Both the position numbers and the translations under genes were made by a program. Under the pieces are notes generated by a model that did not search any database, was not told where the DNA came from, and was given only the letters and a program-made list of their open reading frames with translations. Shown here piece after piece: positions 23,426-57,679 of a stretch of 64,000 nucleotides of DNA (positions are counted from its first letter, which is position 1; every line of letters begins with the position of its first letter). The DNA comes from Gimesia sp. Lineage in GTDB: Bacteria > Planctomycetota > Planctomycetia > Planctomycetales > Planctomycetaceae. Location: NCBI GenBank assembly GCA_002706765.1, contig PAJV01000045.1:62001-126000 (forward strand), in the 5' to 3' direction.

Positions 23426-23739
23426 TCGTTTCCGCATGTGATATAAGGCGTTAACCCCATATGCAATCATTGCTTAATGGAAGCGAGATGGAAATATAAG
23501 CCATTCCTCTCCAAGTTTCAAGCAAAACCACCAGTTCCAGTTCAGGATTCATGAGTTTTCCTGTTTCCGGTTCTGTTCTGCTGCAAATACAGCGAAATTC
23601 AACGTTTTCGACTAAGTCCCGTTTTACGGTATCGACTCCCGGACTATTTGAACCGAGTAGAATAGTTTGAGAGACGCTAGAGTTAAATGTGATGTGTTCC
23701 AGCTGTGCGGAATCTGTGTATTATAACGATCAAAGTTTC
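23426..23739. other. Intergenic region holding repeat copy D
   Basis: This 314-bp gap between tRNA-Phe and the HD-GYP-like gene contains the tRNA promoter region and, at 23609-23702, a minus-strand copy of the dispersed 95-bp element. No coding sequence is supported. Confidence 0.7.
23609..23702 (-). repeat. Dispersed 95-bp element, copy D
   Basis: Read on the minus strand this copy has CATCACA, 12 nt, GTCTC, 31 nt, GGAGTCG, 13 nt, GGACTT. It differs from the other copies in one base of the GGAGACG block and in its last bases, and it lacks the TAGC end. It begins 37 bp after the stop codon of the HD-GYP-like gene, in the same direction. Confidence 0.8.
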
Positions 23740-25101
23740 TTAGATCTGGCCATCAAACAGTTCCGAAGTCAAATCAATCTCTTCTTTTCCCGGGGTGGGC
23801 AGAGCCTGGTCGATTTCCAGTTCACTCGCATGCAGATCAATGATACTGTCCGGATCCATTGGATCGACTTTTTTACCGTTCGCTGTTTGCAGCACCTGGA
23901 CAATCGGGCTGGTATAGTGATCCTGATTCCGGCGGATCACCCGCGCGGCACTTCCATCGGTCAGAATGACAAAGCTGCCAATCGGAAACAGGGAGAGCAG
24001 ATTCAACAGCGCCCGCATGGGTGCCCCATCAATTGTCTTATCGTTTGTAAGCCGTAACAGGTACTCCATCGCTGCATAAGGCATCAGGGCAGGGCGGTCT
24101 TCTCGTGAACTCGTGAGCGAGACATAGGAATGCGCGACATTCAGAATGCGGGCAAACAGATGAATCATATTATGAGATCGCTGCCGTGGAAAACCCAGAC
24201 CATTAGGCTGTTCATGTACCTGATAGCAGACCACCGGAACGACACTGGGAATTCCAGCCACATCTTCCAGCATTTCCAGCGAGAAAATCGGATGTTTCTG
24301 CATTTCGATCCGTTCCAGCGGACTCAGGCGACGACGGCTTTTGCCGATTTTATTCTGTACGCGAACCATCCCCCAGTCATGCACCAGTCCACACAAACCG
24401 ATATTGCGAACGTTGCTCTCATCCAGATTCAGTTCGGTACCAATCGCCATGCCCAGTAATGACATCTGCAGACAATGCTGCGAAAGTGATTCGTCCTTAC
24501 CCGCCTCAGCGGCAGCTGAGATCACACAGTCTGCATCCGCGGTTAACTGGGTCAGATAACTGGCTGCCATGCCGGTGATTTCTGATCCACTGGGGACTTT
24601 TCCGGTCAGCGCACCTCGCATCATTCCGTCGAGTGATTCACCGAATTTCTGCTGCTGCTCAAACAGTTTATCACGATGATCTGGATCATAGGCTTTACAG
24701 CCATGCATCACCATGGAATTGCGGACGGCCGGTCCGGTGTTGGCGACGAACATGGACCCCGATTCGATCAGCCGGTCCAGTTTTTCGGTCAGTTCGGTCG
24801 AGAAGATTCCCTGGTTCGCTGCTTCCAGCATCGGGTCTCCCGCCAGGGCTCCCAGGCTGACAGCAGAGGCATCATCACTGTGGACGTCCACCTGCGACAT
24901 TTTCCTGTCGCGTAATAACTGCTTGAAGCGTGAATTCACCACAGATCCTGAGGCCAGCAGCAAGACGCCGTTCCTGTCATAAATCGGATGATTAATCCTG
25001 CGTCCCACGATCAGGTCTTCGACGCGGATGGAGACGGTCTCAGGAGAATCGACTTGCGATTTGGGGGAGGTGTCAGTTTGTTCTTTAATTTGTGTCGTCA
25101 T
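23740..25101 (-). CDS. HD-GYP-related domain protein with altered signature
   Basis: A 453-residue cytoplasmic protein. The start ATG at 25101 opens with MTTQIKEQ; a longer reading adds 29 residues of low quality. The N-terminal 90 residues (VEDLIVGRRINHPIYDRNG) match the domain often preceding HD-GYP modules. The HD region has NIGLCGLVHDWGM, HPIFSLEML and CYQVHEQPNGLGFPR. In active c-di-GMP phosphodiesterases the last motif reads HHExxDGxGYP; here it is QVHEQPNGLGFP, so the GYP signature is degraded although the HD pair remains. It may be a weak phosphodiesterase or a sensor-type protein. The C-terminal 90 residues (SFVILTDGSAARVIRRN) look like the usual HD-GYP tail. Confidence 0.8.
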   Translation of the reverse strand: MTTQIKEQTDTSPKSQVDSPETVSIRVEDLIVGRRINHPIYDRNGVLLLASGSVVNSRFKQLLRDRKMSQVDVHSDDASAVSLGALAGDPMLEAANQGIFSTELTEKLDRLIESGSMFVANTGPAVRNSMVMHGCKAYDPDHRDKLFEQQQKFGESLDGMMRGALTGKVPSGSEITGMAASYLTQLTADADCVISAAAEAGKDESLSQHCLQMSLLGMAIGTELNLDESNVRNIGLCGLVHDWGMVRVQNKIGKSRRRLSPLERIEMQKHPIFSLEMLEDVAGIPSVVPVVCYQVHEQPNGLGFPRQRSHNMIHLFARILNVAHSYVSLTSSREDRPALMPYAAMEYLLRLTNDKTIDGAPMRALLNLLSLFPIGSFVILTDGSAARVIRRNQDHYTSPIVQVLQTANGKKVDPMDPDSIIDLHASELEIDQALPTPGKEEIDLTSELFDGQI

Positions 25102-25352
25102 TTCCAAAACCTGAAGAGGCAACCGGAGCTTACTCGACCCCGGTAAAAAAACATCTGTGAAGTAATCGAACGCGGGAGACGCTCTCAAAAGAGAACGTTC
25201 AAGGTAAACCTAGTTTCAAAAAATTTAAAACAGAGCTGAGGAGGGATATGCGACACAAAAATCTGAAATGGGATGCGCCTGTTACTCCGAATATTCCATT
25301 CGGGTAAGATTCACAGGAGGGGATTCTCTCTCTGATCAGTGAGGACAGGAAC

Positions 25353-26603
25353 TTATAGAGAATTACTGATCTGTTTCAGCACATCAGCTTCACTGTTTTG
25401 GACAGTGGGCAGAAAGCCACGCAAGGGGAGTGGCGTGCCGTCGTAGCGATACATCGAACCGGGAAACTGGATGCCTGTGATGCCCGTTGGCAGGAAAACC
25501 TCGGGCTGAAAATCCTGGGGCAAAGTGGAACCAATCACGATGGAGGGCACACTTTTCAGATTCCCAAGTGCCTGCGCAGATAACCCTGCCAGTGGGTTTC
25601 CGCCCGTCAGAATACACAGATCCACTTCGGACTGTTCCAGCAAGCGGCTGGCCTGATACTCGGCAGGTGAGTAACAGGGAAACCCGGCAGCGAAATTGAC
25701 AGCCGCTGCATATCCGGTCTGCCAGGCCAGTACATGTTCTGCCCCTTTGGTCTCGCCGGAAGCGGGTACCGAAATGGAGTGACAGCGACGTTCCCTCTGA
25801 ATTTCTCTGATCAGCAGCGAAAGCGCTTCCAGTTTACGATGTGACAGTGGTCCCTGTTTGAATTCCGGGCCGGTAAAAAAAACGATATATTGACTCTGTT
25901 TCAGTTGTGAAGCCAGGGATTGCAGTTGCGATTCGGTAATCCCCACCGGCTCATTTCCGGCAAGGGCGATGCCTTTCAGAAGTGACCTGAGTTGCCAGAT
26001 GACTTCAATTTCCCGCTGAGGCTCGACTGCGATGAATTCATCTGCATGGTCAGTCGCACGTGCAGACTCTTCTCCGATCGCGATGATTTTACGTGTCATC
26101 TCAGGGGAATCTGTTTCCAGAGTCTGTCGATGTCGCGCATTGGCCAGCAGGTCCGCAGCGCCCCAGTAAATAATCAGGTCTGCACGACTGCGTACTTCGC
26201 CAAGGGTACAGGTGGCTTCTCCCACCTGCTGCAGGGCTCTTGTCCCTGCCGAGGCACCTGTGTCAATGACTGCTCCGATTTGATCCGCTAATGCGACTGC
26301 AGCCCGCTGGGCAGCAGTGGAGGACTGAGAGAGACCGGTCACCAGTGGAGCCTGTGCCTGTTGAATCAGTTCGACCGCCTGTTTGATCGCGGCGGCTTGA
26401 GAGACCGGCTTTCCCTGAATCCGCGGAACCAGTTGATCTGTCTCTCCTGCGCGTTCAAACCAGGCCTGCCCCTGAGAGCAGGTGGTTTGAACTTCCAGAA
26501 TCTGCTGACCGTCGATCGTCACCTGAATATCATCGCAGGCGCAATAACAGCCGGCACAGGTGACGTCCTCAATCAGTTTTTTCACAAACCATCTCCGAAA
26601 CAT
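25353..26603 (-). CDS. fhcB: Formylmethanofuran dehydrogenase subunit B (formyltransferase/hydrolase complex FhcB)
   Basis: A 416-residue protein related to molybdopterin-dependent FwdB/FmdB. The N-terminus has the cysteine motif CAGCYCACDD (C16, C19, C21, C23). The middle carries DLIIYWGAADLLANARHRQ and the C-terminal part CILTGGNPLAGLS and LPQDFQPEVFLPTGITGIQF. In bacteria with the tetrahydromethanopterin C1 pathway, FhcB is part of the FhcABCD complex that converts formyl-H4MPT to formate, and planctomycetes are known to carry this pathway. No other fhc or H4MPT gene lies in the window, so the gene seems separated from its partners. It starts 35 bp after the TIM-barrel gene, probably in one transcript. 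Confidence 0.85.
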   Translation of the reverse strand: MFRRWFVKKLIEDVTCAGCYCACDDIQVTIDGQQILEVQTTCSQGQAWFERAGETDQLVPRIQGKPVSQAAAIKQAVELIQQAQAPLVTGLSQSSTAAQRAAVALADQIGAVIDTGASAGTRALQQVGEATCTLGEVRSRADLIIYWGAADLLANARHRQTLETDSPEMTRKIIAIGEESARATDHADEFIAVEPQREIEVIWQLRSLLKGIALAGNEPVGITESQLQSLASQLKQSQYIVFFTGPEFKQGPLSHRKLEALSLLIREIQRERRCHSISVPASGETKGAEHVLAWQTGYAAAVNFAAGFPCYSPAEYQASRLLEQSEVDLCILTGGNPLAGLSAQALGNLKSVPSIVIGSTLPQDFQPEVFLPTGITGIQFPGSMYRYDGTPLPLRGFLPTVQNSEADVLKQISNSL

Positions 26604-26638
26604 TCACTTTGACAGATTCAAAGCACAGGGGATTCGTG

Positions 26639-27487
26639 TTAGCCAAGTCGATTTTTCAGCTCAGTTAACAGCGAAACAGCTTTACCAATATCCGTTTTCT
26701 GCTGTTCACGATTTTCAGGAATTTCGCGTTCGATCGTCAGGGGACCGGTGTAACCGATCTCATCCAGAGTCCGCAGATAGGTTCCCATGCCGACATCTCC
26801 TTCTCCCAGTGGAACTTCCGCTCCCCAGTCGATTCCCCGTCTGTCTTCCGCTGCCCAGGTCGCATCTTTGCAGTGGACACTGCCGACCAGGTGACCGACC
26901 CGTTTCAGGGCGACGATGGGATCTCCTGTGCCGTACAGGATCATATTAGCCGGGTCGAAATTGATCTTCAGATTATCACGTCCGACATCACTGATGAAAT
27001 CGAGCAGATGATCGGCAGATTCCTGTCCCGTTTCCAGATTCAGATTCTGTCCGTTGACTTTGACATGATCCAGCAGCCCCTGTGTGACTGACACCAGCTC
27101 TTTGTAATCGGCCGACTCACGATCTTCGGGAACAAAGCCAATATGCAGGGCAACGGTATCGCATTCGAGCTGTTTGGCAAAATCGGAAATCTCTTTCATT
27201 TCTTCAACTCGGGCAGCTCGCGTTTCAGCGGGAACGAGTCCCACGGTCTGTTTTGTGGTGGGGATATCTGCATAACTTTCACCATCGAATCCGCCAAAAA
27301 CGCAGGTGAGTTTGATCCCGGCAGAATTGCAGCGTTCCAGGAATTCCTGTGCCACCTCGGGAGTTCGCGTCTGTTTGTGAGGTGCATGGATCTGTACGGT
27401 AGGAATTTCCAACTCCTGAACCACATCGAAGTGTACTCCCAATCCTGCATCAACCGAAGCGAATACACCAATAGGCCATTTTTCCAT
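26639..27487 (-). CDS. Sugar phosphate isomerase/epimerase-like TIM barrel protein
   Basis: A 282-residue AP-endonuclease-2/xylose-isomerase-like TIM barrel. The ATG at 27487 is chosen because GGAG lies 8 nt upstream. Typical strand ends include DTVALHIGFVPED, NLNLETGQESADHLLDFI, NLKINFDPANMILYGTGDP, VGSVHCKDATW and PLTIEREIPEN. The Glu, Asp, His and Glu in these segments are the usual metal ligands. The substrate is probably a sugar or hydroxy-acid. It precedes fhcB by 35 bp on the same strand, but a functional link to C1 metabolism is not shown. Confidence 0.82.
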   Translation of the reverse strand: MEKWPIGVFASVDAGLGVHFDVVQELEIPTVQIHAPHKQTRTPEVAQEFLERCNSAGIKLTCVFGGFDGESYADIPTTKQTVGLVPAETRAARVEEMKEISDFAKQLECDTVALHIGFVPEDRESADYKELVSVTQGLLDHVKVNGQNLNLETGQESADHLLDFISDVGRDNLKINFDPANMILYGTGDPIVALKRVGHLVGSVHCKDATWAAEDRRGIDWGAEVPLGEGDVGMGTYLRTLDEIGYTGPLTIEREIPENREQQKTDIGKAVSLLTELKNRLG

Positions 27488-27768
27488 TATTCTGACTCCA
27501 CAATTTGAACGTTTATGATTCTCTTGATGATCCATTTTTCAAGGACAAAATACCCCACCCGTCCGACAGGGGGGCACTTTCATCATAAGGAGATGCCCAC
27601 AGATTCACAAACGAGGACTCTGATTTCTTTACAAATTAAATAAACAGTTTCACGAATCCCCGATTGCCGATTCCCCGGCTATTGTTTCCAGACAAACACC
27701 TCTTATAATGAACTCTTCTTGCACAGCACGCGAAGAACGCCAGCTCGGAAAACACAAGGAACACGCTC

Positions 27769-28242
27769 ATGATCGACATCAATAAAATCCTGATTCCCAC
27801 AGACTTCAGTGAAACCTCCCAGGCAGCTACTCAGTATGCAGTTGAACTGGCGAAGAAGTTCGGTTCCCAACTGCACCTGCTGCACGTGATTGAAGACCCC
27901 GTGGTCTATATGCCGATGTTTGAGAGCTATGCACTCCCTCCCAAAGAAGACTTTGAAAACTTCGCAAAAACCCGGCTGGATAACTGGATCCTGGATGAAG
28001 ATAAACCCGGCCTGGAAATTTTCACACACTGGGTTCACGGAAATCCATTTGTCGATATCCTGAAATATGCCAAACGGGAAGAAGTCGATCTGATTGTGGT
28101 AGGCACGCACGGGCGCTCTTTCACCGCGCATCTGCTGCTGGGCAGTGTCGCCGAGAAAGTGGTTCGCAAGGCACCCTGCCCGGTTTTAACGGTACGGCCC
28201 AAAGGCCATCAGTTCATTCACCCGACCGCTGATGATGAATAA
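27769..28242 (+). CDS. Universal stress protein UspA family
   Basis: A 157-residue cytoplasmic protein of the ATP-binding Usp class. It opens with INKILIPTDFSETS and keeps the nucleotide motif GTHGRS (residues 112-117) followed by GSVAEKVV (125-132) and APCPVLTV. The start has AAGGAA about 8 nt upstream. The SLC13 transporter gene follows 83 bp downstream on the same strand and may be co-transcribed. Confidence 0.93.
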   Translation: MIDINKILIPTDFSETSQAATQYAVELAKKFGSQLHLLHVIEDPVVYMPMFESYALPPKEDFENFAKTRLDNWILDEDKPGLEIFTHWVHGNPFVDILKYAKREEVDLIVVGTHGRSFTAHLLLGSVAEKVVRKAPCPVLTVRPKGHQFIHPTADDE

Positions 28243-28325
28243 CCGTTCGCAGCCTGCTGTAATCCTGATCTGAACTCCAACTCTCTACAAATCATGTATT
28301 GAGATAATACGGGACGACTCTATTC

Positions 28326-29942
28326 GTGATTGGCGACTCATCACATTCGGTAGAAAGCCGCATCCCATTCTATGGGAAACTGTTCAGCCTGATTGCATTT
28401 GTGATCATTCTGAATCTGCCTGCGCCTGCTGACATGACATCTTCAGCGCAACGTCTGGCAGCGATTACGGCATTGATGGCAATTCTGTGGATGACCCAGG
28501 CCATCCCTATCGCGGCAACCAGCCTCATCCCCCTGGTCGCATTTCCTGTTTTCGGCATTCAGGATCCGAAAACCGTCAGTGGTTCCTACATGAATGAAAA
28601 TATCTTCCTGTATATGGGGGGATTTATCATTGCACTCGGAATTGAAAAATGGGGTGTTCACAAGCGCATCGCCTTGAATACCATTCGAGTCATTGGCAGC
28701 AGTCCGCGGCGCGTGGTTCTCGGTTTTTTATTCGCCACCGCGTTTCTATCCATGTGGATCAGCAATACCGCATCGACATTACTCATGCTGCCGATCGGGA
28801 TGGCAATCATCGGTTCGATCTCCGAGCTGGCGATGTTTGATTCCGAGGAAGACTCGTCTAAAGCAATCCAACACTTCTCAGTCGCTTTATTGCTGGGTAT
28901 CGCCTATTCCGCAAGCATTGGCGGGGTGACCACACTCATCGGAACGCCCACAAATATTGCCTTTCAGTCGATCTGGACTTCGCAGTTTCCTGACGGCCCC
29001 CAGTTATCGGCTGGCGAATGGATGATTATGGTCGTCCCGTTTGGGATTACCTTTCTACTGCTGACGTGGATGGTACTCTGCTGGAACATGCCCCGGCTGT
29101 CGAGTTCGAAAGAGTCCTCTAAAGCAATTATCAATGAACATGTGCGGAAACTGGGGAAGCCAACCCGACCTGAAATCCTGATGTTAATGGTTTTTGTGGT
29201 CACGGCCGTGTTATGGATCACCCGGAAACCGCTTACTTTTGGAGAAGATTTTGTTCTGCTGCCCGGCTGGGAAAGTCTGCCCCTCCACTTTCTGACCAGG
29301 TGGGGTATTCCCGTCGAATCCGCATCGGGCTGGGTCCACGACTCCACCGTGGCGATGGGCATGGCATTGCTCATGTTTGCGATCCCGGCTCAGAAATCGG
29401 AGCAGGGCGAAACAGAATACCTGATGGACTGGGAGACCGCCGAACGACTTCCCTGGGGAGTACTGCTGCTGATTGGCGGCGGGTTTGCGATCGCCAGTGC
29501 ATTCAGCAGCACGGAACTCTCCGACTGGGTGGGACAGGTATTTTCCCAGCTCATCGCAGGCTGGCCTGCCTGGGCACTCATCTTTGCCGCGTGCTTGATG
29601 CTGACGTTTCTGACGGAATTCACATCCAATATTGCGACCGTCAATACAGTGTTGCCCATCATGGCGGCAACGGCAGTCAGTCTTGATATCGATCCAAGGC
29701 TGATCATGATCCCTGCCGCGATTTCAGCGAGCTGTGCGTTTACAATGCCGATAGCCACGCCACCGAATGCCATTGTATTCGCGTCGGGAAAAATCAAGAT
29801 GTCGGACATGCTCAAATACGGCATCATCCTCAACCTGATCGGGGTCTTCCTGCTGACGGCGTTTATGTGGTTTTATTTTGTACCACAACTGGGTATTGAG
29901 TTTGGATCCGCCCCCGAATGGTTACATCAGCACAAACCCTGA
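28326..29942 (+). CDS. SLC13/DASS family sodium-coupled anion symporter
   Basis: A 538-residue transporter with about 11-12 hydrophobic helices. The start is a GTG. The two family signature loops are present: GVTTLIGTPTNIAF in the N-terminal half and MPIATPPNAIVFASG in the C-terminal half, both carrying the Asn/Thr residues that bind sodium and a carboxylate. WISNTASTLLMLPIG and FLTEFTSNIATVNTVLPI are the paired SNT motifs. The substrate is probably a dicarboxylate or a related anion; sulfate is a less likely alternative. It ends 9 bp before the convergent mnmE stop. Confidence 0.9.
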   Translation: MIGDSSHSVESRIPFYGKLFSLIAFVIILNLPAPADMTSSAQRLAAITALMAILWMTQAIPIAATSLIPLVAFPVFGIQDPKTVSGSYMNENIFLYMGGFIIALGIEKWGVHKRIALNTIRVIGSSPRRVVLGFLFATAFLSMWISNTASTLLMLPIGMAIIGSISELAMFDSEEDSSKAIQHFSVALLLGIAYSASIGGVTTLIGTPTNIAFQSIWTSQFPDGPQLSAGEWMIMVVPFGITFLLLTWMVLCWNMPRLSSSKESSKAIINEHVRKLGKPTRPEILMLMVFVVTAVLWITRKPLTFGEDFVLLPGWESLPLHFLTRWGIPVESASGWVHDSTVAMGMALLMFAIPAQKSEQGETEYLMDWETAERLPWGVLLLIGGGFAIASAFSSTELSDWVGQVFSQLIAGWPAWALIFAACLMLTFLTEFTSNIATVNTVLPIMAATAVSLDIDPRLIMIPAAISASCAFTMPIATPPNAIVFASGKIKMSDMLKYGIILNLIGVFLLTAFMWFYFVPQLGIEFGSAPEWLHQHKP

Positions 29943-29951
29943 AGCAATTGA

Positions 29952-31325: not shown

Positions 31326-31423
31326 GCTGAATTTCGTAGTGAAACTTTACGGGAGCATGAACGTTATGAAAAACGCGATGCCCACAAAACCTGATCTTTC
31401 TGCTCCCTGGTTTCAGACTCAGA

Positions 31424-31520
31424 CTGGAGCGCATCACACTTAAGCATTGCGTCTCTCAATCCATGCTACTCAGCCCGAATCGCCCGGGAGACGTTGCAGT
31501 AAAACTGGACACGGTTTAGC
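31424..31520 (+). repeat. Dispersed 95-bp element, copy A
   Basis: Blocks are CATCACA, 12 nt, GTCTC, 31 nt, GGAGACG, 13 nt, GGACAC, then GGTTTAGC. CGTCTC and GAGACG can pair as a 6-bp outer stem. It lies between mnmE and yidC in the opposite direction. Its last five bases cover the yidC stop codon (31516-31518) and part of the preceding codon. Confidence 0.85.
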
Positions 31521-33639
31521 GTCGTTTTTTCGACTTTTTCCCCGGTCCTCGGTCCCGGGAATTCGGCTGTTTCCGCTCATTCAATGCTGCCTGCTCCTGT
31601 GCCTGATCCGCGATTTCCTGGAGACGGGCAAACCAGCCTTTTTTAGCGGGTGGCTCATCCTCTTCCGGCTTATTTTTTCTGTTCTGCGTCTTTTTCGATT
31701 TGGCTTCGACTTCGATCACGTTGGGATCGGTTCCCACAATTGTCGAGGTACGCCGTTTGGACTGGTAGTCCAGCAGCTTTCGCTCACAAATCCCCCACAG
31801 GCTGGAGGCAATGAAGTACACACACAGACCAGCGGGAACATGGTAGAACATGAATCCCATACCGATCATCATGTAGTTCATGATCTTGTGCTGCAGTTCC
31901 TGATCCTTATCGGTTGGCGGCGGCATGAACAGCTTCTGCTGGATGACGAACAGCCCCACTGTCACGATGGGTAACAGGTTGAACTGGTCTCCCAGGAAAG
32001 GAATAGCAAAGGGCATCTGAAACAGGGCATCCGGAGCGGCCAGGTTATCAACCCACAGAAAGGGAGTCCCCCGCAACTGGACAGCATTGTTCAACGCGGT
32101 ATACAGACCAAAGAAAATCGGCAGCTGCATGAAGATAGGCAAGCAGCCCGCCAGGGGGTTGTAGTTGTTCTTGCTGAACAGCTCCATTTGTGCCCGGCCC
32201 AGCTTTTCGCGGTCATCTCCGTATTTCTTTTTGAGTTCCGCAATCTGGGGCTGCAGCTCTTTCATCTTCTGAGCGCCGATTGCCTGCTTGCGCGACAGCG
32301 GATAAAGGCTGCCACGAACGATGATCGTCAGACAGATAATGGCTATTCCGTAAGACAGACCAACCCCATGCAGGGTCGTCAGCAGCCAGAGCATCAGCTT
32401 GGCAACCGGCCCGAAAATGCCGAGGTCCATAATCTCAGTGGCATTGAGCGGTGGCCCCAGCAGGGATTCCCGTTTCGGCCCCGTATACATTGCATAGCTG
32501 TGTGTGATTTCGCCACCGGGCGCCAGTTCCAGATCTTTCGAATTGACTTTGACCGTGATCCGGCTCTGTGTTTCATCCATCAGTCCACGCTGGACCAGGA
32601 CCGGCTCGATACTGGCCGAATAATTGGACTGCATTTCGCCGTTAACGAGCTGAGGATCGTAGTTTTTCCCATCAGGCGTCAGCAGAGCAGCGAAGTATTG
32701 AATATCAACACCGGCGAATTGAAACGCGCGGCTGTATTTCTCGACCTGTTGTGCGTTGACATTTTCAATGATGTCCGGAGCGGTAAATATTTCCGTTTCT
32801 ACACTCTTGTCATCCTGCAGAAAGCCGATGCGCAGATCGCGAAACTTGCGGGTGTTTTCGGCATTTTCCAGAGGGATCCCGATCGGTCCCAGCAGTTGGT
32901 ATTCGAGTTTCTGAACTGCCTGGCCGTGGTTGATCACTTTGATATCAAAGTGGACCATGTAACCTGACTGGTTAGTATCTCGAAATTCACGAAAGTCATC
33001 CGGGGGAACCGGATACTTCTTGAGATCGTATTTTTTCTGTACTTCAATGCTGCCATCTGGTGCGGTCAGACTCAGGAGAACTGACTGATAGAGTTTAGGA
33101 TCATCCGGATCCTTCACCAGGTCCAGAATCTTCCAGTTGGCTGAGTGGCTGTCTACGTTTAACGCCGCCAGTTTGGCATCCAGTTGTGCCACATCCAGAT
33201 CGAGGCTGCTGCGTTTGAAGTTTTTGCCTGCATCAAATTGACCCAGAATCTGTAAAGGTTGTTTGGGATCTTTCAGATCCCGGTATAAGGGGTCGTTCAG
33301 GTGTGCCTCAACCAGTGACGCTCCTGTCGTCGAAATCTTTGTCTGCAGGAAATAGCCCGTTTCAGGGTCCAGTGATCCCAAGAGGATTGTACGCTGAGGA
33401 TTGTTCAGCAGATCCGCTTGGGGAGGCGCCGGTTGCTCGTCAGCGGCATTTTTCGCCCCGGGGATATCCGGTTTTATTGCCACCAGAGGCGCATCAGGAT
33501 CCTGAGGATCCTGGATATCATTCTCGACTGCGTTTTGCGCTGCGGGGGGGGGAGCGATTTTCGGGTTAATGAACAGCTGCCAGGCAAATAACATTGATGC
33601 TGACAGTGTGACAAACAGTAAGAGTCGTTTTTGTTCCAT
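31516..33639 (-). CDS. yidC: Membrane protein insertase YidC
   Basis: A 707-residue YidC of the long Gram-negative type. A first TM (LLLFVTLSASMLFAWQLFI) leads to a proline-rich linker, a large periplasmic beta domain (about 75-410) and the conserved Oxa1 core with YGIAIICLTIIVRGSLYPLS, LQPQIAELKKKYGDD, NPLAGCLPIFMQLPIFFGLY and a final TM pair. The tail is lysine- and arginine-rich, ending KKSKKRR, suited to ribosome contact. It starts 2 bp after the phosphoesterase stop, so the two form an operon. The stop codon is covered by repeat copy A. Confidence 0.95.
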   Translation of the reverse strand: MEQKRLLLFVTLSASMLFAWQLFINPKIAPPPAAQNAVENDIQDPQDPDAPLVAIKPDIPGAKNAADEQPAPPQADLLNNPQRTILLGSLDPETGYFLQTKISTTGASLVEAHLNDPLYRDLKDPKQPLQILGQFDAGKNFKRSSLDLDVAQLDAKLAALNVDSHSANWKILDLVKDPDDPKLYQSVLLSLTAPDGSIEVQKKYDLKKYPVPPDDFREFRDTNQSGYMVHFDIKVINHGQAVQKLEYQLLGPIGIPLENAENTRKFRDLRIGFLQDDKSVETEIFTAPDIIENVNAQQVEKYSRAFQFAGVDIQYFAALLTPDGKNYDPQLVNGEMQSNYSASIEPVLVQRGLMDETQSRITVKVNSKDLELAPGGEITHSYAMYTGPKRESLLGPPLNATEIMDLGIFGPVAKLMLWLLTTLHGVGLSYGIAIICLTIIVRGSLYPLSRKQAIGAQKMKELQPQIAELKKKYGDDREKLGRAQMELFSKNNYNPLAGCLPIFMQLPIFFGLYTALNNAVQLRGTPFLWVDNLAAPDALFQMPFAIPFLGDQFNLLPIVTVGLFVIQQKLFMPPPTDKDQELQHKIMNYMMIGMGFMFYHVPAGLCVYFIASSLWGICERKLLDYQSKRRTSTIVGTDPNVIEVEAKSKKTQNRKNKPEEDEPPAKKGWFARLQEIADQAQEQAALNERKQPNSRDRGPGKKSKKRR

Positions 33640-33641
33640 TG

Positions 33642-36869: not shown

Positions 36870-36905
36870 TCTGAACCTCTTTCCGATTCGCTGAAACCTC
36901 GAATG

Positions 36906-36934
36906 AAAGCACGTCTCAAGGACGTGCTTTTTTT
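36906..36934 (+). terminator. Rho-independent terminator after the sigma-54 regulator
   Basis: AAGCACGTC and GACGTGCTT pair around a 5-nt loop and are followed by TTTTTTT. It lies 37 bp downstream of the regulator stop codon on the same strand and fits a strong intrinsic terminator. Confidence 0.9.
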
Positions 36935-38296: not shown

Positions 38297-38306
38297 TTAA
38301 AGGGAC

Positions 38307-38980: not shown

Positions 38981-38983
38981 CTT

Positions 38984-41893: not shown

Positions 41894-42689
41894 TGAATCA
41901 CAATGCTTTACATAATTAACAATAGTCAATGGGACTTTGGGTCCGGCAGGTCATTTTTTTCGACACATGCTCGAATCCATTACATTTTACCCATCACGTC
42001 TCAAATTTCTGAAACGCATCACATTTGAGCCTGACGTCTTTCGATCTATCATGCTCGGGCCAAATGGCCGGGAGACGCTACATGAAAGCGGGACACTGGT
42101 TAGCATAAGCAATCAATTGCCAAGTATCCATAGCGCTGCATGTTTCCGTATTGAGTAAAAGCGAAAAGACAGTCTAACTCATAATCAATTCGGTAGTTAA
42201 GCATGAGTCTCCACGGAAATAAAAAAGCAGATTACCGGAAATCATGCATCTCCGATCCAGCAAAAAAACTGATAAAATCGTATTAATTATCAAGTTAACG
42301 GGAACTCCTGTAATTCACGTTCCGTCCAATGGAAGGAAAGCAGCGAATTTCTGATATGTAAACGCAATACATTCGCAGTTCGTCGCTGCATCAGGTGACA
42401 TTGGTTATAACGGTTTGTATTAATTTTTATGAAGTCGTTTTCAAACATCAGTTATTTCATTGACTTTATAGGAAATCCTGTGATAGCCTTATGTTAGGGA
42501 ATCAGAACTTCTCAATTCATTCCCAAGCCTATCCTGACAGAAATTGAATTGATCTGATACATTTCTGCCTGTTGTCTTAGCTCTCTCAACCGGCAGAATT
42601 TCACCTCGTAAAATATTTTCCAAGTAAATTCCGGTTCAATCTGATGACCAGTGGTTCCTCAGATCCGGAAAGCAGGAGTAACCAGACAC
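41894..42689. other. Intergenic region with repeat copy B and pilM operon leader
   Basis: This 796-bp gap lies between the divergent GH38-like gene and the pilM operon. Repeat copy B occupies 42009-42104. The rest is AT-rich (about 42160-42640) and should contain the pilM promoter, but no -10/-35 pair can be named with confidence. No coding sequence is supported. Confidence 0.65.
42009..42104 (+). repeat. Dispersed 95-bp element, copy B
   Basis: Blocks are CATCACA, 12 nt, GTCTT, 30 nt, GGAGACG, 13 nt, GGACAC, then TGGTTAGC. The middle holds GGCC-AAAT-GGCC, which can form a hairpin; CGTCTT and GAGACG can pair outside it, with one G-U pair. A partial echo (CATCACGTCTC) lies just upstream at 41992-42002. 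It points towards the pilM operon, 585 bp away. Confidence 0.87.
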
Positions 42690-44834: not shown

Positions 44835-44928
44835 GCCAAACTGCGTTACATTGAGAGTTAAAGAGATTCTGGTACATATCTGAAAATCAAAACGTATTTC
44901 ATCTCTTCGGAGAAAAGAGGACAACCCC

Positions 44929-46656: not shown

Positions 46657-46724
46657 TACACTTTTTACTCGAGGCTGCATTCAAGCAGTTCGTGTAACAT
46701 TTTTCACTTAACGGAGACAGTCCT

Positions 46725-48917: not shown

Positions 48918-48944
48918 TTGAAAATCGCAATCCAACTTTAATAG

Positions 48945-48979
48945 AAGGGCGGGACGTTTCAGTGTCCTGCCCTTTTTTT
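48945..48979 (+). terminator. Rho-independent terminator of the pilM operon
   Basis: GGGCGGGAC pairs with GTCCTGCCC (one G-U pair) around an 8-nt loop and is followed by TTTTTTT. It lies 27 bp downstream of the last pilM-operon gene and before the convergent folC. Confidence 0.92.
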
Positions 48980-49081
48980 ACGGGAATTCTTGGAACTGAT
49001 TTCGCTCTGTAGCAGGTAGAACTGGCTGCTGCTATTGTTTGCCGGAAATCGAGTAGACGCGACCAGTAAGATTCGTCACGA

Positions 49082-50515: not shown

Positions 50516-50723
50516 GCCAGGCAGTTTCCTTATGATATAACTGAAAAAACATACATTCTGTTAACTGTCGTGATCGGCAAAACAGCTAAAACGGCTGAGT
50601 ATAACAGCGATCTGCCCGATATTATAGTCACGCACATTTCGTAAAGAGACGGTGATGTATATGATCTAAAAAAGAATTTTACAACTACCAGCGCCCTGCG
50701 AGCTTCAAAGGTATACAGAAAAC

Positions 50724-51212
50724 ATGAGCATTCAGATTGCCACCATCGTGGAACTGTTGAAATTCAACCGGATCATGACACTCAAAACAGTCGATGAGAT
50801 CAGCACACTACCTGATTCGCAATCGGCCCTGGCATTTCGGCCTGGCCCCGGCAGGGCCACGATTGCCTGGCAGATCATGCATATTGCCATTACCGAAGAA
50901 TTATTTGCCACAGATCGGCTGCGAAAAACTGAGTCGACACTATCCGACCTGTTTCCACTGTACCAGAAGGGAAGTACGGCGGGTGACGAGATTCCCACAC
51001 TGGAGGTCATCCAAAATACATTAAACCAGACCCGTGATCATCTTCTGGAGACGATTCAGCTGATCGGGGAAGCCGACCTGGAACTGGTTCCGGCAGGCCT
51101 GCAGGAACGAGGCTGGTCCAACGAAATGGCTTTAAAAATCCTGTGCTGGCATGAAACTCACCATCAGGGACAGGCACATCTGACTTTGAATTCCTGGAAG
51201 GCAGAACAATAG
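50724..51212 (+). CDS. DinB-like family protein
   Basis: A 162-residue four-helix-bundle protein of the DinB/YfiT type. Histidines at the usual metal positions are present: the first in AWQIMHIA and the pair in CWHETHHQGQAHL. The family includes thiol-dependent transferases and hydrolases that bind a metal; this member's substrate is unknown. The gene is divergent from folC and stands alone. Confidence 0.82.
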   Translation: MSIQIATIVELLKFNRIMTLKTVDEISTLPDSQSALAFRPGPGRATIAWQIMHIAITEELFATDRLRKTESTLSDLFPLYQKGSTAGDEIPTLEVIQNTLNQTRDHLLETIQLIGEADLELVPAGLQERGWSNEMALKILCWHETHHQGQAHLTLNSWKAEQ

Positions 51213-51482
51213 CTGGTTCCCTGAACAATGACGGGAAAACCGGGGAACATCGAATTCCTGTTGGAGTGTCATTTTAAATTTGGGATTGATGGATATCACT
51301 GGAGTGCGACAACGGAGCACGTAAACAACACCCCCAACCCTTAATTTCCAGCTTAACAAAGCACTATTGACATTTTTTCAGTATCTTTATCCAATTAAGT
51401 CTGTCATTCAATTAGAGTCAACCACTTCAGACGTTCTACCTGATGTTGAAACGGTTTCAATTCAGTTGGAGGATCTGTCCCC

Positions 51483-51809
51483 ATGAGTTCGATCAACCCG
51501 GGTGCTCTTAATATCAACAGCTCTTTTGCCGGTGCGCAACGGAGCGACGCCAATATCGACAAAGAAAAAGCCGAAGCAGCGGCGCAGAACATGTCGATCG
51601 ATAAAAAAGAGATGACTGACCATCAGTTGCATGATGTCGGTGATCCCCCCGAATCGGGAGACCGTGATGCCGATGGCCGCATGCCGTTGGGACATGAAGA
51701 AGAAGCAGAGCAGGGGCCTCATCGCGAAACGGACGAGCAGGAAGAACACACCGCTCGTCATCCTGATGCAGAAGGCAACCGGGGCACGCAGTTGGATCTG
51801 GATGCCTGA
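51483..51809 (+). CDS. Small acidic, hydrophilic protein of unknown function
   Basis: A 108-residue protein, very rich in Asp, Glu, His and Gln, without hydrophobic segments, so it is probably disordered. The start has GGAGGA about 9 nt upstream, which supports translation. The gene is convergent with the cpaE-like gene, 16 bp apart. I do not recognise it. Confidence 0.6.
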   Translation: MSSINPGALNINSSFAGAQRSDANIDKEKAEAAAQNMSIDKKEMTDHQLHDVGDPPESGDRDADGRMPLGHEEEAEQGPHRETDEQEEHTARHPDAEGNRGTQLDLDA

Positions 51810-51825
51810 CAGAGGCTCTGAAAGG

Positions 51826-53037
51826 TTATTTGGAATTATTCAAAAAACCGAACAGGCTTTTCTTCTTTCGCGAAACCGAATCTTCCTGCTCAGAGGCTGA
51901 TTCCCCACTTACACTCGCAGCCAGCCCCATAATGGTTCTGGTGAGTTTTGCTTTGGGAGCCTGCATCACCAGGGGAATGCCGTTATTACGGGATTCTACC
52001 ATGGTTGCATAATCATTGGGAATCTGGCAGAAAATTTCGCGACCAATCGTTTCCAGTGCTTTACTCACACTGATCTGGGTATCTTCGAGTCCCAGTCGAT
52101 TCATGACGACTTTGATTTTCTCTGCGATATGATCATTGGTATCAAAAAACTGCGAAAGTCGCACGACGTTTCGCAGGCAGGGCAAATCCAGCTGCGCCGT
52201 CAACAGCACAGTATCTGATAACTCCATCGCGGCCAGGTCGAGACTGTTATAAGACTTGCTGACATCAATCACAAGATGTGTGAACGTCGCGCGCAGCAGA
52301 GCAATGATACGGCGGAGGACTTCGGTCGTAATCTGCATCGACATATCCATCTGCACGGGACGCGGTAACAGGAAAGCCCCACACGCATGCTTGGTCAACG
52401 AGCGTTTTAACAGTGAATAATCCAGTCGCGAAATATTTTCAGCGACATCCTGAATGGTGTAATCCGGTATGATATCCAACCAGACATCCGTATCACCCAG
52501 CGCCAGATCCAGATCGATCACAGCGACACTGTTATGATCATGGCTTGCCAGGCAGCAGGCCAGATTGATCGCCAGCGAAGTACAGCCAACGCCACCACTC
52601 ACACCAGCAACGGTAATGACCTGGCTGGAACGGGGGGCGTTATGTTCTCCTTCTGATTTACCCGAGGTAATCTGAATTCGGTTTAAGGCAGACAGGAAGT
52701 CTTCCAGTACCAGCGGGAACCCCAGAAATTCTTTAGCGCCATTTCTCATGGCTTTTAAGATCAGACTGCCTTCCTGAGAACTGCTGACGACAATCACGTT
52801 ACAGCTGGGTAAATCACGCGTGACATGGGCGATCAGATTTAATGCCATCTCCGGATTCGCGTCCAGTGAAATCAGCGCAATGTCCGGCTTGGTCTGCGAA
52901 ACTACCTCCGTGAAAAATTCATAGCGGCTGCACTCCGCTTCGAGCCAGACCATATCCACGCCAATCAGCATGTTCTTCAGCTCATTGCGAGTTGCTTCAT
53001 TGGGATCGATAATCGAAAGCCGGACAACTCCACTCAT
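51826..53037 (-). CDS. cpaE: CpaE/TadZ-like pilus assembly protein
   Basis: A 403-residue protein with a receiver-like N-terminal domain (about 1-120, candidate acceptor D59) and a MinD/ParA-like ATPase domain. The deviant Walker A reads GVSGGVGCTS (145-154), where the usual lysine is replaced. VAVIDLDLALGDTDVWLD follows. This matches CpaE/TadZ proteins that localise Tad pilus machinery and often lack full ATPase motifs. It is the last gene of the minus-strand Tad group, 265 bp after the secretin gene; repeat copy E lies in that gap. Confidence 0.87.
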   Translation of the reverse strand: MSGVVRLSIIDPNEATRNELKNMLIGVDMVWLEAECSRYEFFTEVVSQTKPDIALISLDANPEMALNLIAHVTRDLPSCNVIVVSSSQEGSLILKAMRNGAKEFLGFPLVLEDFLSALNRIQITSGKSEGEHNAPRSSQVITVAGVSGGVGCTSLAINLACCLASHDHNSVAVIDLDLALGDTDVWLDIIPDYTIQDVAENISRLDYSLLKRSLTKHACGAFLLPRPVQMDMSMQITTEVLRRIIALLRATFTHLVIDVSKSYNSLDLAAMELSDTVLLTAQLDLPCLRNVVRLSQFFDTNDHIAEKIKVVMNRLGLEDTQISVSKALETIGREIFCQIPNDYATMVESRNNGIPLVMQAPKAKLTRTIMGLAASVSGESASEQEDSVSRKKKSLFGFLNNSK

Positions 53038-53211
53038 TCGTTGATCACTTCTACTTAGGGTTTGGTTTTTCTACTGTCTCTTTTAATAGTATCGAACTTG
53101 AATGCCCACTTTTTGAATCTTTTCAAAAATGATCCTGCCACACGGATCTGCACTCCCGTACACGCCGAGCAATTCCTGTCTGAATGACTTTCAACTGAAA
53201 CAGTTTCCCAT

Positions 53212-53300
53212 CCGGGTTGTGTCCCGTATTACCGTAGCGTCTGTCAGACCATCTGGATCGAGTATCTAGATTGAATGACACTTTAATTAAATGTGAACAG
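53212..53300 (-). repeat. Dispersed 95-bp element, copy E (diverged)
   Basis: Read on the minus strand this copy has GTTCACA, 12 nt, GTCAT, 30 nt, ACAGACG, 13 nt, GGACAC. The block spacing equals that of the other copies even though two blocks have changed. TCAATCTA, TACTCG and CTACGGTAATACG agree closely with copies A, B and D. It starts three bases after the stop codon of the secretin gene and lies upstream of cpaE. Confidence 0.75.
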
Positions 53301-53302
53301 CT

Positions 53303-55078
53303 CTAGCTACCCGGTCCAATCAGTCCCGGTTGATTACTGGTCGGAGAACTTAAGCTGGGTGCCCTAGCTTTCACGTTCGGTTCAGGAGTTTTTGATTTGG
53401 CTTTCCATTCTTTATTTTGCGGACTGGAAAGATCTGGCACTTTCGCAGCCGTTGCTGGCTTCTGAGTTGCTTTCTGCATTCTTTCATGCTCCTGTAATGC
53501 TTTGACATTCTCGGGAGACAATGAGGGTTTCCTGATTTCTTCAGAGTGAATGCTGGGAGCCGCCGGAACAGGAGGTACCTGGGAGGCCGAAGTGGGTGGC
53601 AGTACATGATCGGGAATCATCATCGATTCCGGGCTGATCGGTCCGGGAATGGAATACTGACAGTCAGGGCAGTCATCCCCATAGTTGGGTACTTCCAGCA
53701 CGCCATCCAGATACAACTCGCGATCGGTGGGTGTTGCGGTAAACAGGCCGGGACCTCCTGCGGGAACCTGGCCCGATTTCAGTGGGGAAACCAGTTCCGG
53801 AGTCACCATGATCACCAGTTCGGTTTCGCCTTCGGTGTATCTGACCCGACGGAAGGCTGCTCCCACAACGGGGAGTTCTCCCAGGAAGGGTGTCTTGGAT
53901 GTTTCAGCAGTTTTGCGGCTGGAAATCAGACCGGCAATCACCATGGTTTCGCCGAAATTCATTTCGACAGCTGTATTAGCGCGGCGGACAGTCAATCCGG
54001 GAACGGTGGTTCCGGCTACCTGAACCGCGTTGGAAAAATCGCGTTCACTCACTTCAGGCTGAACTTCCAGTCGCAGGCGACCATTCCCCAGAACAATGGG
54101 AACGGCTTCCATTCTGACCCCGAATTCACGCCATTCAATCGTGACGGTACCCAGACTCTGAGGAACCAGGATCGGAAATTCACCACCTGACAGCAGGTTG
54201 GCAGGGCGACCACTGGTTGTCACCAGTTCCGGTTCCGCGAGAATTTTCAGCAGTGCTTCTTTCTTCAGTGCTTCGATGAACGCCTGAAAAATACTGGAAC
54301 CATCCACCAGTCCAAAACCCAGTGACGTGCCACTGATCAGGTTCTGTGATGCGGTAATTGCCGGTGGCCCGCCGAAGGGGGTGGTGATACCGGTGATGGG
54401 AACCAGGCTGCCTGGCGTACTGTAAGCATAACCTGACTGATTCAAAAACAGCCAGTTGACGCCCAGCTGCCGAATTTTCGATCGCTGAACTTCCATGATT
54501 TTGACTTTCAGCAGGACCTGTTGTACTCCCGCCAGCTTCATCTGATTTAACACGCCATTCGGAAAAAACTGCTCGGCGATTTCCACCATTTCCGTGATGG
54601 CTTCAGGTTCTGTGACCCAGCCACGCAAGACAACCGAATCCTGAACCTTGATGGCAGTCACAGACGAAGTGGGGAACAGTTCCTTCAGGTAAGCCTGCAG
54701 GTGACGTGCATCGCCACTCACGAATGTCTCTATCGTGTAGACTTTGCCATTTTCATCAGTAATGACCAGTGTGGTCACACCGGGAATCAGGGCCTGGATG
54801 CGGAGCTCATTGGGAGTGAGTGCTGAGACACTCAAAACAGTCGGATCAAATCCGTCCACGCGTTTGATCTTACCCGCGAATTTGAGGATTTTGGAGAACT
54901 TCTCTGTCACTTCCAGCTTCATCTTTTCAGATGTGATCTGTACGACAGGTTCACTCGCACCGGGAGGTGCAGGCTGCTCGTCCTGGGCATACGCCTGTAA
55001 TGCAATGAGGCTGCATACCAGTGCGACGAGAACAACAGGCAGACATTTCACTCTCATGTGTTTTTTTAAGGCCAGCAT
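53303..55078 (-). CDS. Tad pilus secretin (RcpA/CpaC-type)
   Basis: A 591-residue outer-membrane secretin. A signal peptide (about 8-32, ending AYAQD) is followed by the pilus-assembly N-terminal domain and a BON-like segment (KVQDSVVLRGWVTEPEAI). The secretin core has LAEPELVTTSGRPANLLSGG, GVRMEAVPIVLGNGRLRLEV and GLISSRKTAETSKTPFLGEL. The C-terminus is Pro/Ser-rich. It forms the outer-membrane pore for Flp pili. The start has GGGG 6 nt upstream. Repeat copy E starts right after its stop. Confidence 0.9.
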   Translation of the reverse strand: MLALKKHMRVKCLPVVLVALVCSLIALQAYAQDEQPAPPGASEPVVQITSEKMKLEVTEKFSKILKFAGKIKRVDGFDPTVLSVSALTPNELRIQALIPGVTTLVITDENGKVYTIETFVSGDARHLQAYLKELFPTSSVTAIKVQDSVVLRGWVTEPEAITEMVEIAEQFFPNGVLNQMKLAGVQQVLLKVKIMEVQRSKIRQLGVNWLFLNQSGYAYSTPGSLVPITGITTPFGGPPAITASQNLISGTSLGFGLVDGSSIFQAFIEALKKEALLKILAEPELVTTSGRPANLLSGGEFPILVPQSLGTVTIEWREFGVRMEAVPIVLGNGRLRLEVQPEVSERDFSNAVQVAGTTVPGLTVRRANTAVEMNFGETMVIAGLISSRKTAETSKTPFLGELPVVGAAFRRVRYTEGETELVIMVTPELVSPLKSGQVPAGGPGLFTATPTDRELYLDGVLEVPNYGDDCPDCQYSIPGPISPESMMIPDHVLPPTSASQVPPVPAAPSIHSEEIRKPSLSPENVKALQEHERMQKATQKPATAAKVPDLSSPQNKEWKAKSKTPEPNVKARAPSLSSPTSNQPGLIGPGS

Positions 55079-55232
55079 CCGTGCCCCTTACATTTTTTTT
55101 ACTACAGAGTGATGTCAGAAATTATCCGCAATCACCCTAAAACAGGTATCATTCCATAACTTGTTGAGAGAACTCTCTCTGCCCGCAATCAATTCCCCCC
55201 GGTCTGTGTCAGAGAGCAGGGGGGCTCGTATC

Positions 55233-56282
55233 TCAGTTAATTTTCTGTTTCTGTTTGTTTGTAAAGACTTCCCACAGATCTTTCAGAGCTGCTTTCTGAT
55301 CTTCGATTTCTTCTTCCAGAAGTTCGACTTCCTGTACGATTTTTTCTTCTCCGGAATAAATCTCAATCTGCCACATTTTTTTCGGTTCTTCCAGTGGCTC
55401 GACCTCGGTTTCCACTGAAGTCATCTGCTGCGGTTCCTGTTCTTCATCCAGAAACTGCTTCGCCGACTGAGGCGTTTTTTCCTGTTGAACCACTTCCGGT
55501 TTCTCTGTTTTCTTTACATCCCCTTGCGTCGATTCTTCACCATCTTTCAGGTATTCACTACCGTCGATCGAAAAAACTTCAGCCAGTTCGTCATCATCAA
55601 ACTGCACATCTTCTGAATTTGTCGAATCAGACTGTGCCCTTAATGCGAGATGAACTTCTCCTTTTTTCTCAGCCAGTTTCAACATGGCTCCTTCACGGGG
55701 AGACAGTAAGAGTGAAATATTCTTTGATTTAACCTGATTACTTTCTGTACCCCCGACATCGGTCAGATGGTCCGTCGCAAAGATCTTGACCCGTTCCAGT
55801 ATCACTTTTGTTATCGTTGACATACCGCCTTCAGGTTTGCGGGCTGTGAACGTGACGTACACATCCACAAAGTCTCCAGGCAGTATCAAACCGCTATGTG
55901 TTTTGGTCATATCCACTGATGTCGTGAAGACCCGTTTCCCATCTGGAATTTCGACCGAGGCTCCGCGAACCCCTTGTTCACTGAGTTTCGCTTTCATCAC
56001 GATTTCTCCCGGAACGGCCCGGGTCTTGATGGAGCGGTCTTTATACTGTTCCAGTTTAGTCACGGCACCTTCCGGTACCTGATCAATCGGCCATGATTTG
56101 AATTTGACGTTGGACTCATTTAAAGGAGTACCAGGCGGGATTTCAGCAATTGTCATCAGAACATCTGCCGTTTTCACTTCAACCTGCTTGTCATCCTTAT
56201 TGAGGATCTGCCTCACGCCCAACATCGCAACCAGTCCACAACCGACGGCGATCACCAACATCATCAACGACTTGACTTTCAT
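55233..56282 (-). CDS. cpaB: Flp pilus assembly protein CpaB (RcpC)
   Basis: A 349-residue protein with one N-terminal TM (SLMMLVIAVGCGLVAMLGV) and a periplasmic SAF-like region (PPGTPLNESNVKFKSWP, AVPGEIVMKAKLSE, LPGDFVDVYVTF). ATG 56282 is preferred because GGGTGA lies 8 nt upstream. The C-terminal third is an acidic, Glu/Gln-rich low-complexity stretch that is long for the family. CpaB works with the secretin in the Tad system. It lies upstream of the secretin gene on the same strand, 154 bp apart. Confidence 0.87.
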   Translation of the reverse strand: MKVKSLMMLVIAVGCGLVAMLGVRQILNKDDKQVEVKTADVLMTIAEIPPGTPLNESNVKFKSWPIDQVPEGAVTKLEQYKDRSIKTRAVPGEIVMKAKLSEQGVRGASVEIPDGKRVFTTSVDMTKTHSGLILPGDFVDVYVTFTARKPEGGMSTITKVILERVKIFATDHLTDVGGTESNQVKSKNISLLLSPREGAMLKLAEKKGEVHLALRAQSDSTNSEDVQFDDDELAEVFSIDGSEYLKDGEESTQGDVKKTEKPEVVQQEKTPQSAKQFLDEEQEPQQMTSVETEVEPLEEPKKMWQIEIYSGEEKIVQEVELLEEEIEDQKAALKDLWEVFTNKQKQKIN

Positions 56283-56593
56283 ATCTGTCACCCATCAAAG
56301 AGAAACATATCAGCGAAGCTCTGATGAAAAGGGGCTTGTGTCCCGCAGGATGCAAGTCCGTTTTCCGAAATGGCGAATCTGATAGGCATCTGTTTTCACA
56401 GGAGAACAGAAAAAGAAAATTCTGTCATCATGGAGAACATCGGCACTTCGAGAGCTTTCGCTTCAATTTATAACGATTTTATCGTTTGAAAAAGTTATTC
56501 TGGTTGTAACACTTGGCTTCTCGCGAATACCCTGAAGCCCGCACTCGCCTCACACCCCCTGTCTTCACAGCAGGCGGGAGTTCCTGTTTCGTC
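56283..56593. other. Intergenic region between prepilin peptidase and cpaB
   Basis: The 311-bp gap contains no supported gene. GGGACAC occurs once on the minus strand (56338-56344), but the rest of the repeat is missing. A cpaB promoter may be here. Confidence 0.5.
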
Positions 56594-57145
56594 TTACAGA
56601 AGTCCTGCGTAGAAGAAATAGGCAATCGATCCGATGCAAATGGGAATCCCATAAGGCAGCAGAAACATGGTTGGCTTTCGTTCCTTAGCGATACGTGACA
56701 GTTCGCGTGGGTTCTTCACCGAACGCCATTCATCAAGAATCACTAGAGCCTGCCCCAGATGCTTGTAGAAGTTCTTACGGTAGAGCACCATGGCCACAGC
56801 CATGATCGCGCCCACGATTGTAGTCACGCAAAATGCATAGAAGGTAATTTTGACACCCAGCCAGGCACCGATGCCGGCCATCAGTTTGACGTCTCCCGCT
56901 CCCATGCCACCAACGCTGTACAGGGGGAGAAGTGTAGCCAGTCCGACGACCATTCCCAGCAGTCCCCAGCCCAGTCCAGCCAGTCCGCCAGTCCAGGTCA
57001 TGTAAATCAATCCGGACAGCACCATGGGGTAGGTGATCCAGTTGGGAACACGCAGTTCTTTTCCATCAATGTATGCGGCATAAATCAAGACAATGGAAAC
57101 AAACTTAACATGCCAATTCTCGAGAAGTAACTGTTGCCAATCCAT
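56594..57145 (-). CDS. Prepilin peptidase, A24 family (TadV/CpaA)
   Basis: A 183-residue membrane peptidase started at ATG 57145, with AAAGG 9 nt upstream. It has about six hydrophobic helices and the two catalytic aspartates of the family: D27 in IDGKELRVPNW and D85 in GMGAGDVKLM. It should cleave Flp prepilins in the inner membrane. It lies upstream of cpaB and downstream of flp, with an 806-bp gap to flp that holds repeat copy C. Confidence 0.9.
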   Translation of the reverse strand: MDWQQLLLENWHVKFVSIVLIYAAYIDGKELRVPNWITYPMVLSGLIYMTWTGGLAGLGWGLLGMVVGLATLLPLYSVGGMGAGDVKLMAGIGAWLGVKITFYAFCVTTIVGAIMAVAMVLYRKNFYKHLGQALVILDEWRSVKNPRELSRIAKERKPTMFLLPYGIPICIGSIAYFFYAGLL

Positions 57146-57583
57146 CAATATGGCCTTTCTTATCGTGTCTGAATGAAATGCATTTGAGAGCATTCCGTTG
57201 GGGATATTGCTAGTTAGTGATACTCAGTTCTGATCGTCTGCCAGATGATGCGAAACACGATCGACACGATCAGCCTGGTATGAGAGTTGTATTCTTATTA
57301 TTCAGTTTAGGTCACAGGCGCGGCAGAGGAGTGAATATCTTAAAATTTTTCTGGTTTATGGTGGCCTGCTGCCGGGGTGTGAAATGAGGGCCTGCCGGAG
57401 TTGAAGCTGCATCCGGAAAGACTGTCTCTGCTGTATTAAAACTTTCGTATCAGCAGACTCTGCGCTATGCCTTGATCCAACAGAACTGGTCTGCTACCTG
57501 CATCCGGATCTCCAGAACTTGAGCGGACCAGGGGAGTGCAAACGGATACGGCAATTGATATTCTTTATTCAGTGGTACTTGAT

Positions 57584-57679
57584 TCAGAGCGCATGACAAT
57601 TAATTTCAGTGTCTCACAATCTACGATACCTGGCCCCATGGGCCTGGAGACGCAGCGTTTAAACGGGACACATTCTAGC
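57584..57679 (+). repeat. Dispersed 95-bp element, copy C
   Basis: Blocks are CATGACA, 12 nt, GTCTC, 30 nt, GGAGACG, 13 nt, GGACAC, then ATTCTAGC. GGCCC-CAT-GGGCC forms a 5-bp hairpin inside; GTGTCTC pairs with GAGACGC outside with one G-U pair. It runs opposite to the Tad genes around it. Confidence 0.87.

Follow-up and report, generated by a model that had tools for sequence, protein, structure and literature searches.

RUP, from the pneumococcus, is the closest precedent for the element described here. According to PMC2229807 and PMC3049150, it is a 107-bp repeat present in 108 copies, with TA targets and with ends resembling those of IS630-Spn1, which was proposed as its mover. ERIC/IRU and Correia/NEMIS are likewise short MITEs with terminal inverted repeats, a terminal TA and target duplication (PMC2229807). 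Another pneumococcal repeat, BOX, supplies the stop codon of a host gene in 36 cases according to PMC3049150. REPs have been reported in planctomycetes, with R. baltica named in PMC3733652. The accessible text of a MITE review (PMC10969869) contains no occurrence of IS630, the TA dinucleotide or stop codons, and a listing-level search of the open-access literature returned no report of a MITE or repeat in Gimesia or Planctomyces maris.

The window analysed here, a 64,000-nt stretch of a Gimesia genome, contains five copies of an element that is almost certainly a MITE of the IS630 (Tc1/mariner-like) type, non-autonomous and encoding nothing. It adds a case to a class of genomic parasite that is already known, and is not a new RNA. 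The comparison with RUP, made by description, is with a non-coding element of about 100 bp in roughly a hundred or more copies; both have TA at each end, TA targets and IS630-like ends. The Gimesia element differs from RUP in its phylum, in being palindromic over its full length, in that one end alone closely matches an IS, and in its excess at stop codons. ERIC/IRU and Correia/NEMIS, also compared by description, occupy other hosts. BOX likewise provides stop codons of host genes but, unlike the Gimesia element, is modular, variable in length and has a different proposed mobiliser. A single genus holds the MITE, a candidate parent transposon and an internally deleted transposon copy (in genome G008), together with presence/absence differences, a second MITE that shares the target, and the stop-codon excess; with these features combined, Gimesia lets one trace, within one genus, how a MITE arises, spreads and is tolerated.

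The five window copies and the anatomy of the element

The first-pass annotation had listed five related copies of a dispersed 95-bp element with fixed block spacing. A repeat finder, which placed A, B and C in one group and paired D with A, B and E, agrees with a sequence-only profile in which the five copies score 76–87 bits; the profile was built from these copies, so their matches hold by construction. The features, in window positions, are as follows.

23608-23699, minus strand: copy D (profile match), flanking TA mutated on both sides
31427-31521 (body 31427-31516), plus strand: copy A (profile match)
41978-42011, plus strand: partial left arm of a further copy, directly 5' of B (resemblance by eye)
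42012-42105, plus strand: copy B (profile match)
51262-51366, plus strand: member of a second MITE family, separate from the 95-bp element finding
53213-53303, minus strand: copy E (profile match)
57587-57680, plus strand: copy C (profile match)

No sixth full copy was found in the window with the five-copy profile. The next-best match (12.0 bits) is D itself on its other strand, as a palindromic element should give. At the partial arm upstream of B, three orthologous sites are 37–39 bp shorter. An alignment of the five copies has 34 invariant columns out of 100. The block spacings of 12, 30/31 and 13 were recovered by measurement in every copy: the first is 12 and the third 13 in A–E, and the middle one is 31 in A and D and 30 in B, C and E. 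The element itself is real and somewhat shorter than the 95 bp first given for it; it measures 90 bp between two TAs.

The consensus between the TAs, derived from 166 copies, is GAGCGCATCACATTTAACCATAGCGTCTCTCAATCTATTATACTCGGTCCAAATGGCCCTGGAGACGCTACAGTAAAACTGGACACAGTC, and the length is exactly 90 nt in 142 of the 166. Position k of the consensus pairs with position 91-k, which makes the element an imperfect full-length palindrome; the 29 arm positions comprise 19 Watson-Crick pairs, four mismatches and six pairs that become G-U if the minus strand is read. In the core stem, the GTCTC block lies opposite the GGAGACG block; that one half of the element is an inverted repeat of the other was missed in the first-pass annotation. 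The element thus has terminal inverted repeats, is shorter than 200 bp and carries no transposase gene, all of which are features of a MITE. At the right end (consensus positions 78–89), a mini-hairpin carries the same paired change, ACTG/CAGT to CCTG/CAGG, in nine copies from G002, G003, G004, G007, G011 and G015, which represent a clade-specific subfamily.

Distribution in Gimesia and insertion at TA

The genome containing the window (7.9 Mb in 78 contigs) has at least 153 profile matches, the window's five included; 150 of 826 first-look candidates were scored, so that this count is a lower bound. A profile built from 58 loci gave 33 matches at E<1e-3 in 864 kb, window included, and none at that threshold in the reversed sequence of the same 864 kb. 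Samples of 400 kb each from G014 and G000, picked regardless of copies, gave 14 matches each at E<1e-3 (one match being cut by a sample edge), and extrapolation from them yields an estimated 275 or so copies per genome.

Searched with the sequence profile, all 17 Gimesia genomes were positive, and none of 23 genomes of other relatives was. Detected copies, which are lower bounds, number at least 104 in each of G000, G008 and G014, 18–74 in ten other genomes of the genus, and one in each of G001, G005, G009 and G012. The single copies of G005 (L043) and G009 (L045) have identical flanks and hence go back to a single old insertion common to both genomes. The copies of G001 and G012 are at other locations. 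A wider scan of the phylum, with 14 candidates scored per genome so that weak copies would escape, matched 8 of 294 genomes, six of them Gimesia. The other two, out of 288 non-Gimesia genomes, are G102 and G188. The match in G102 (E 4.6e-20), a draft assembly from a different planctomycete family, is on a contig (L260, G102:C252:10000-18566) whose final 2.9 kb is syntenic to G008, G000 and G014 with 83–91% identity, while the preceding 5.6 kb of the fetched stretch has no match; judged by this pattern, the contig is likely misbinned or chimeric DNA. The match in G188 is partial and marginal (E 7e-4).

Insertion is established by comparing two filled sites of G014 with their empty counterparts in two sister genomes. 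The filled site 'gctcctcta[element]tagtctttgat' of G014 corresponds to 'tattccttagtctttgat' in G008 and 'cctcactaatctttgat' in G000, and a triple tandem array in G014 has the empty counterparts 'gatcatactaatg' (G008) and 'atcatattaacg' (G000). The empty sites contain a single TA and the filled sites a TA at both sides, which is the target-site duplication of a MITE. The window sites are consistent with TA duplication, some of the TAs there being mutated. Among 109 high-scoring copies, the left flank is conserved as C (0.88), T (0.95) and A (0.82), and the right flank as T (0.93), A (0.84) and R (0.91). Conservation beyond the element is limited to a left-hand CTA and a right-hand TAR. A TA target is what an IS630-mobilised MITE would have. 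Tandem copies share one TA between neighbours and repeat with a period of 92.

The many dispersed copies differ in presence and absence between genomes, as is also characteristic of MITEs. The D site is empty in all eight other genomes aligned, with a separate copy about 50 bp away in G008. Copy A has a counterpart in G008 and is absent from six of the seven genomes aligned, five of which lack a longer stretch. Copy B is also found in G014, G008 and G006, and copy C in G014 and G008; G006 has a copy somewhere in the same gap as C. At the E site, a G014 copy occupies the same TA in the opposite orientation (L169:12559-12648), meaning that either one stop codon received an insertion twice, independently, or a copy was inverted in situ; this TA is empty in G008 and G006, and a further G008 copy lies at a different point of the gap. 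The syntenic region of about 19 kb around B, E and C has no copy at E<=1e-4 in nine genomes (G013, G016, G010, G001, G012, G005, G009, G003 and G002), and one copy, at a different place, in G004. Recent movement is suggested by a pair of identical G014 copies whose flanks differ.

In the mechanism proposed for the MITE, an IS630-family transposase acting in trans would recognise the ends TAGAGCGCATCACATTTAACC... and TAGACTGTGTCC..., insertion would occur at TA, mostly within CTAR, with duplication of the TA, and the inserted copies would then drift. An element end together with its TA makes a new target, which accounts for side-by-side insertion, both in the period-92 tandems and next to the second MITE.

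A candidate IS630 mobiliser and a second MITE family

A DDE_3 locus of G001 is surrounded by TA-ended inverted repeats that start like the MITE. The complete IS630 element is found in G001 and G016 (98% identical) and is 1,025 bp long including the TA at each end, with ends TAGAGCGCATCACA... and two overlapping transposase frames, an HTH frame and a DDE_3 frame that overlap around an A run. The second frame matches Pfam DDE_3 with an E-value of 5.2e-33 and the NCBIfam IS630 model with 143.2 bits (cut-off 100); the first frame reaches 45.8 bits with the latter, under the cut-off. In contrast, the MITE has no gene and its right end has diverged. The IS is full length in 2 of the 17 genomes and in pieces in G000, G008, G012, G014 and G005, and no match to it was found in the remaining 10 of the 17.

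The left end of the MITE agrees with each IS end at 25 of 27 positions, TA included, and the right end at 17 of 27. For 3,769 TA-anchored sites in the window, which include the element's own copies, the mean is about 8, with maxima of 20 and 23 (8.2 where the maximum is 20). The suggestion of a REP-like mobile remnant in the first-pass annotation was thus right as to mobility, given the flanking TAs, the IS630-like left end and the empty sites in sister species, and wrong as to REP, the element being an IS630-type MITE instead. The same annotation would have counted it against its own reading if all the copies proved to be ends of a known insertion element, which is largely the case for the left end, the right end being the more distant.

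The transposase of this IS630 element, or a relative of it, probably moved the copies, as the shared left end indicates. Because of the lower agreement of the right end, another transposase may be the true mobiliser; no partner for this end within 5 mismatches of 20 was found among the IS630-type loci fetched and scanned. The genomes with an intact IS, G001 and G016, have one and 23 detected MITE copies, respectively, and the MITE-richest genomes (G014, G008 and G000) have the IS as pieces only. Since the intact IS resides in low-copy genomes, we infer its link to the expansion from the ends.

One IS copy in G008 (L261, G008:C1:2648500-2650200) has an internal deletion that joins positions 1–443 to 948–1026. 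It is a possible step between the IS and the MITE.

The second MITE is about 105 bp long, with ends TAGTGnnnTGTCA and the same TA target. The site of its window copy is empty in G014, G008 and G006 (TTTCTATTGAC). Further copies are located as follows.

G014:C1:388221-388326: second MITE family
G000:C4:64799-64904: second MITE family

In a sample of eight copies, picked around copies of the first family, five directly adjoin a first-family copy, one of them on both sides. The ends of the second MITE agree with those of an IS630-type element in the window's genome (L104) at 16–21 of 28 positions.

Stop codons, folding and competing readings

Insertions are in excess at stop codons. A sample of 116 copies scoring at least 50, with ends extended to the full element, was reduced by the eight inside called ORFs to 108 intergenic copies; 27 of these, A and E included, lie in a gene's stop codon with the stop retained. 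The expected share is 10.0% from the target preference (p = 6e-6) and 7.1% unweighted (p = 7e-9), with genes called by the longest-ORF rule and weights taken from 81 copies away from stops, so that the observed share is 2.5 times that expected from target preference; this null ignores the harm of promoter insertions, and allowing for it would raise the expected share. Raw profile spans, which miss short-ended alignments such as A and E, give 20 of 108 versus 12.2% (p = 0.055), and, of 127, 22 gene ends at offset -1. In total, 28 gene ends fall at the element boundary and five inside the element in the two other frames, and six called ORFs run through a copy. As few genes end inside copies in other frames, truncation by a boundary TAG explains few cases.

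In copy A, the right-hand TA (31517-31518) is within the stop codon of the minus-strand ORF 31516-33639, and in copy E the left-end TA plus the first base of the element form the TAG stop of the minus-strand ORF 53303-55078. Read by eye from the alignments, a TAA or TAG stands at the corresponding position in all six aligned copy-free genomes at the A site, and the E site has TAA in G008 and TAG in G006. Both ends start with G after the TA; consequently, a TAA or TAG stop becomes TAG upon insertion and the protein is not lengthened. The 108 intergenic copies are distributed over 31 convergent, 56 co-directional and 21 divergent gaps, compared to 129, 495 and 185, respectively, among all 809 gaps of at least 60 bp, an approximately twofold enrichment of convergent gaps (p = 0.002).

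The stop-codon excess may reflect either targeting or tolerance. It is unlikely, if less so than the readings below, that the MITE is specialised for stop codons, being drawn to them beyond its base preference or best tolerated there, supplying TAG from either end and providing the host gene with a 3' hairpin that may act as a terminator or mRNA end. As for the MITE in general, its copies are probably functionless today.

A multicopy, conserved small structured RNA, one of the options of the first-pass annotation, is very improbable. Intact copies from five loci fold well whichever strand is taken, with z between -2.2 and -4.7 for the minus strand and between -0.95 and -3.3 for the plus strand; folding them on both strands brought out the palindrome. 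All six consensus-arm transitions are in the direction that gives minus-strand G-U pairs. However, the five window copies fold no better than shuffled sequences on either strand (z -1.28 to 0.33), and wobbles at consensus-paired positions show no strand bias (94 plus versus 86 minus). Compensatory changes are few: 13 cells in the 19 arm pairs versus a shuffle mean of 8.1 (25/500), with 10 versus 5.1 in the 9-bp core stem (18/500). Paired changes in the right-end mini-hairpin amount to 14 cells versus 2.9, a number reached by 0 of 500 shuffles, but nine of these are one clade-specific change, and in G000 and G014 alone the count is 4 versus 1.9 (44/500). Copies are also absent from orthologous places and drift. 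At Rfam gathering thresholds the sole match in the window is a tRNA-Phe, with none for the element. Wobbles and compensation together led to this reading being set aside.

Less probable still is a repeat of the REP type, mobilised by a RAYT (Y1 tyrosine) transposase. The element is short, palindromic, mostly intergenic and present in many copies, and its arm includes GTAG and CGTC, which are REP tags in PMC3733652. As defined there, a REP is a 20–40 bp hairpin with one unpaired tag, a description that does not fit an element of 90 bp that has long inverted arms and a TA on each side, and the left end is shared with a DDE (IS630) element. Finally, a protein-binding site, the remaining option of the first-pass annotation, or a chromosome-organising site, selected at each place, to which the constant length and spacing might point, can practically be dismissed, given that 4 of the 16 other genomes of the genus have one detected copy, that window sites are empty in sister species and that orthologous copies drift.

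The copies of the MITE drift. When A, B and C are compared with their orthologues, in seven comparisons that are not independent of one another, the differences amount to 168 substitutions and 26 gaps, a count that takes in end effects. Identity is 0.69–0.80 within the element, 0.61–0.76 in the left 100 bp and 0.77–0.92 in the right 100 bp (one right flank, at 0.45, is doubtful); orthologous copies therefore diverge like their left flanks and more than their right flanks. Repeated spacing with divergent bases had been taken as a sign of selection rather than recent copying. This is not supported, as the spacing is inherited family architecture and orthologous copies drift and gather indels; constant spacing with diverged bases need not imply selection. 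Given this drift, the constancy of length reflects source lineages and detection. Across the family, 27 indel events accompany 1,541 substitutions (0.018 per substitution), a low rate that drift does not explain completely; the amplification of a small number of source lineages may play a part in it, as may the fact that copies are detected by alignment.
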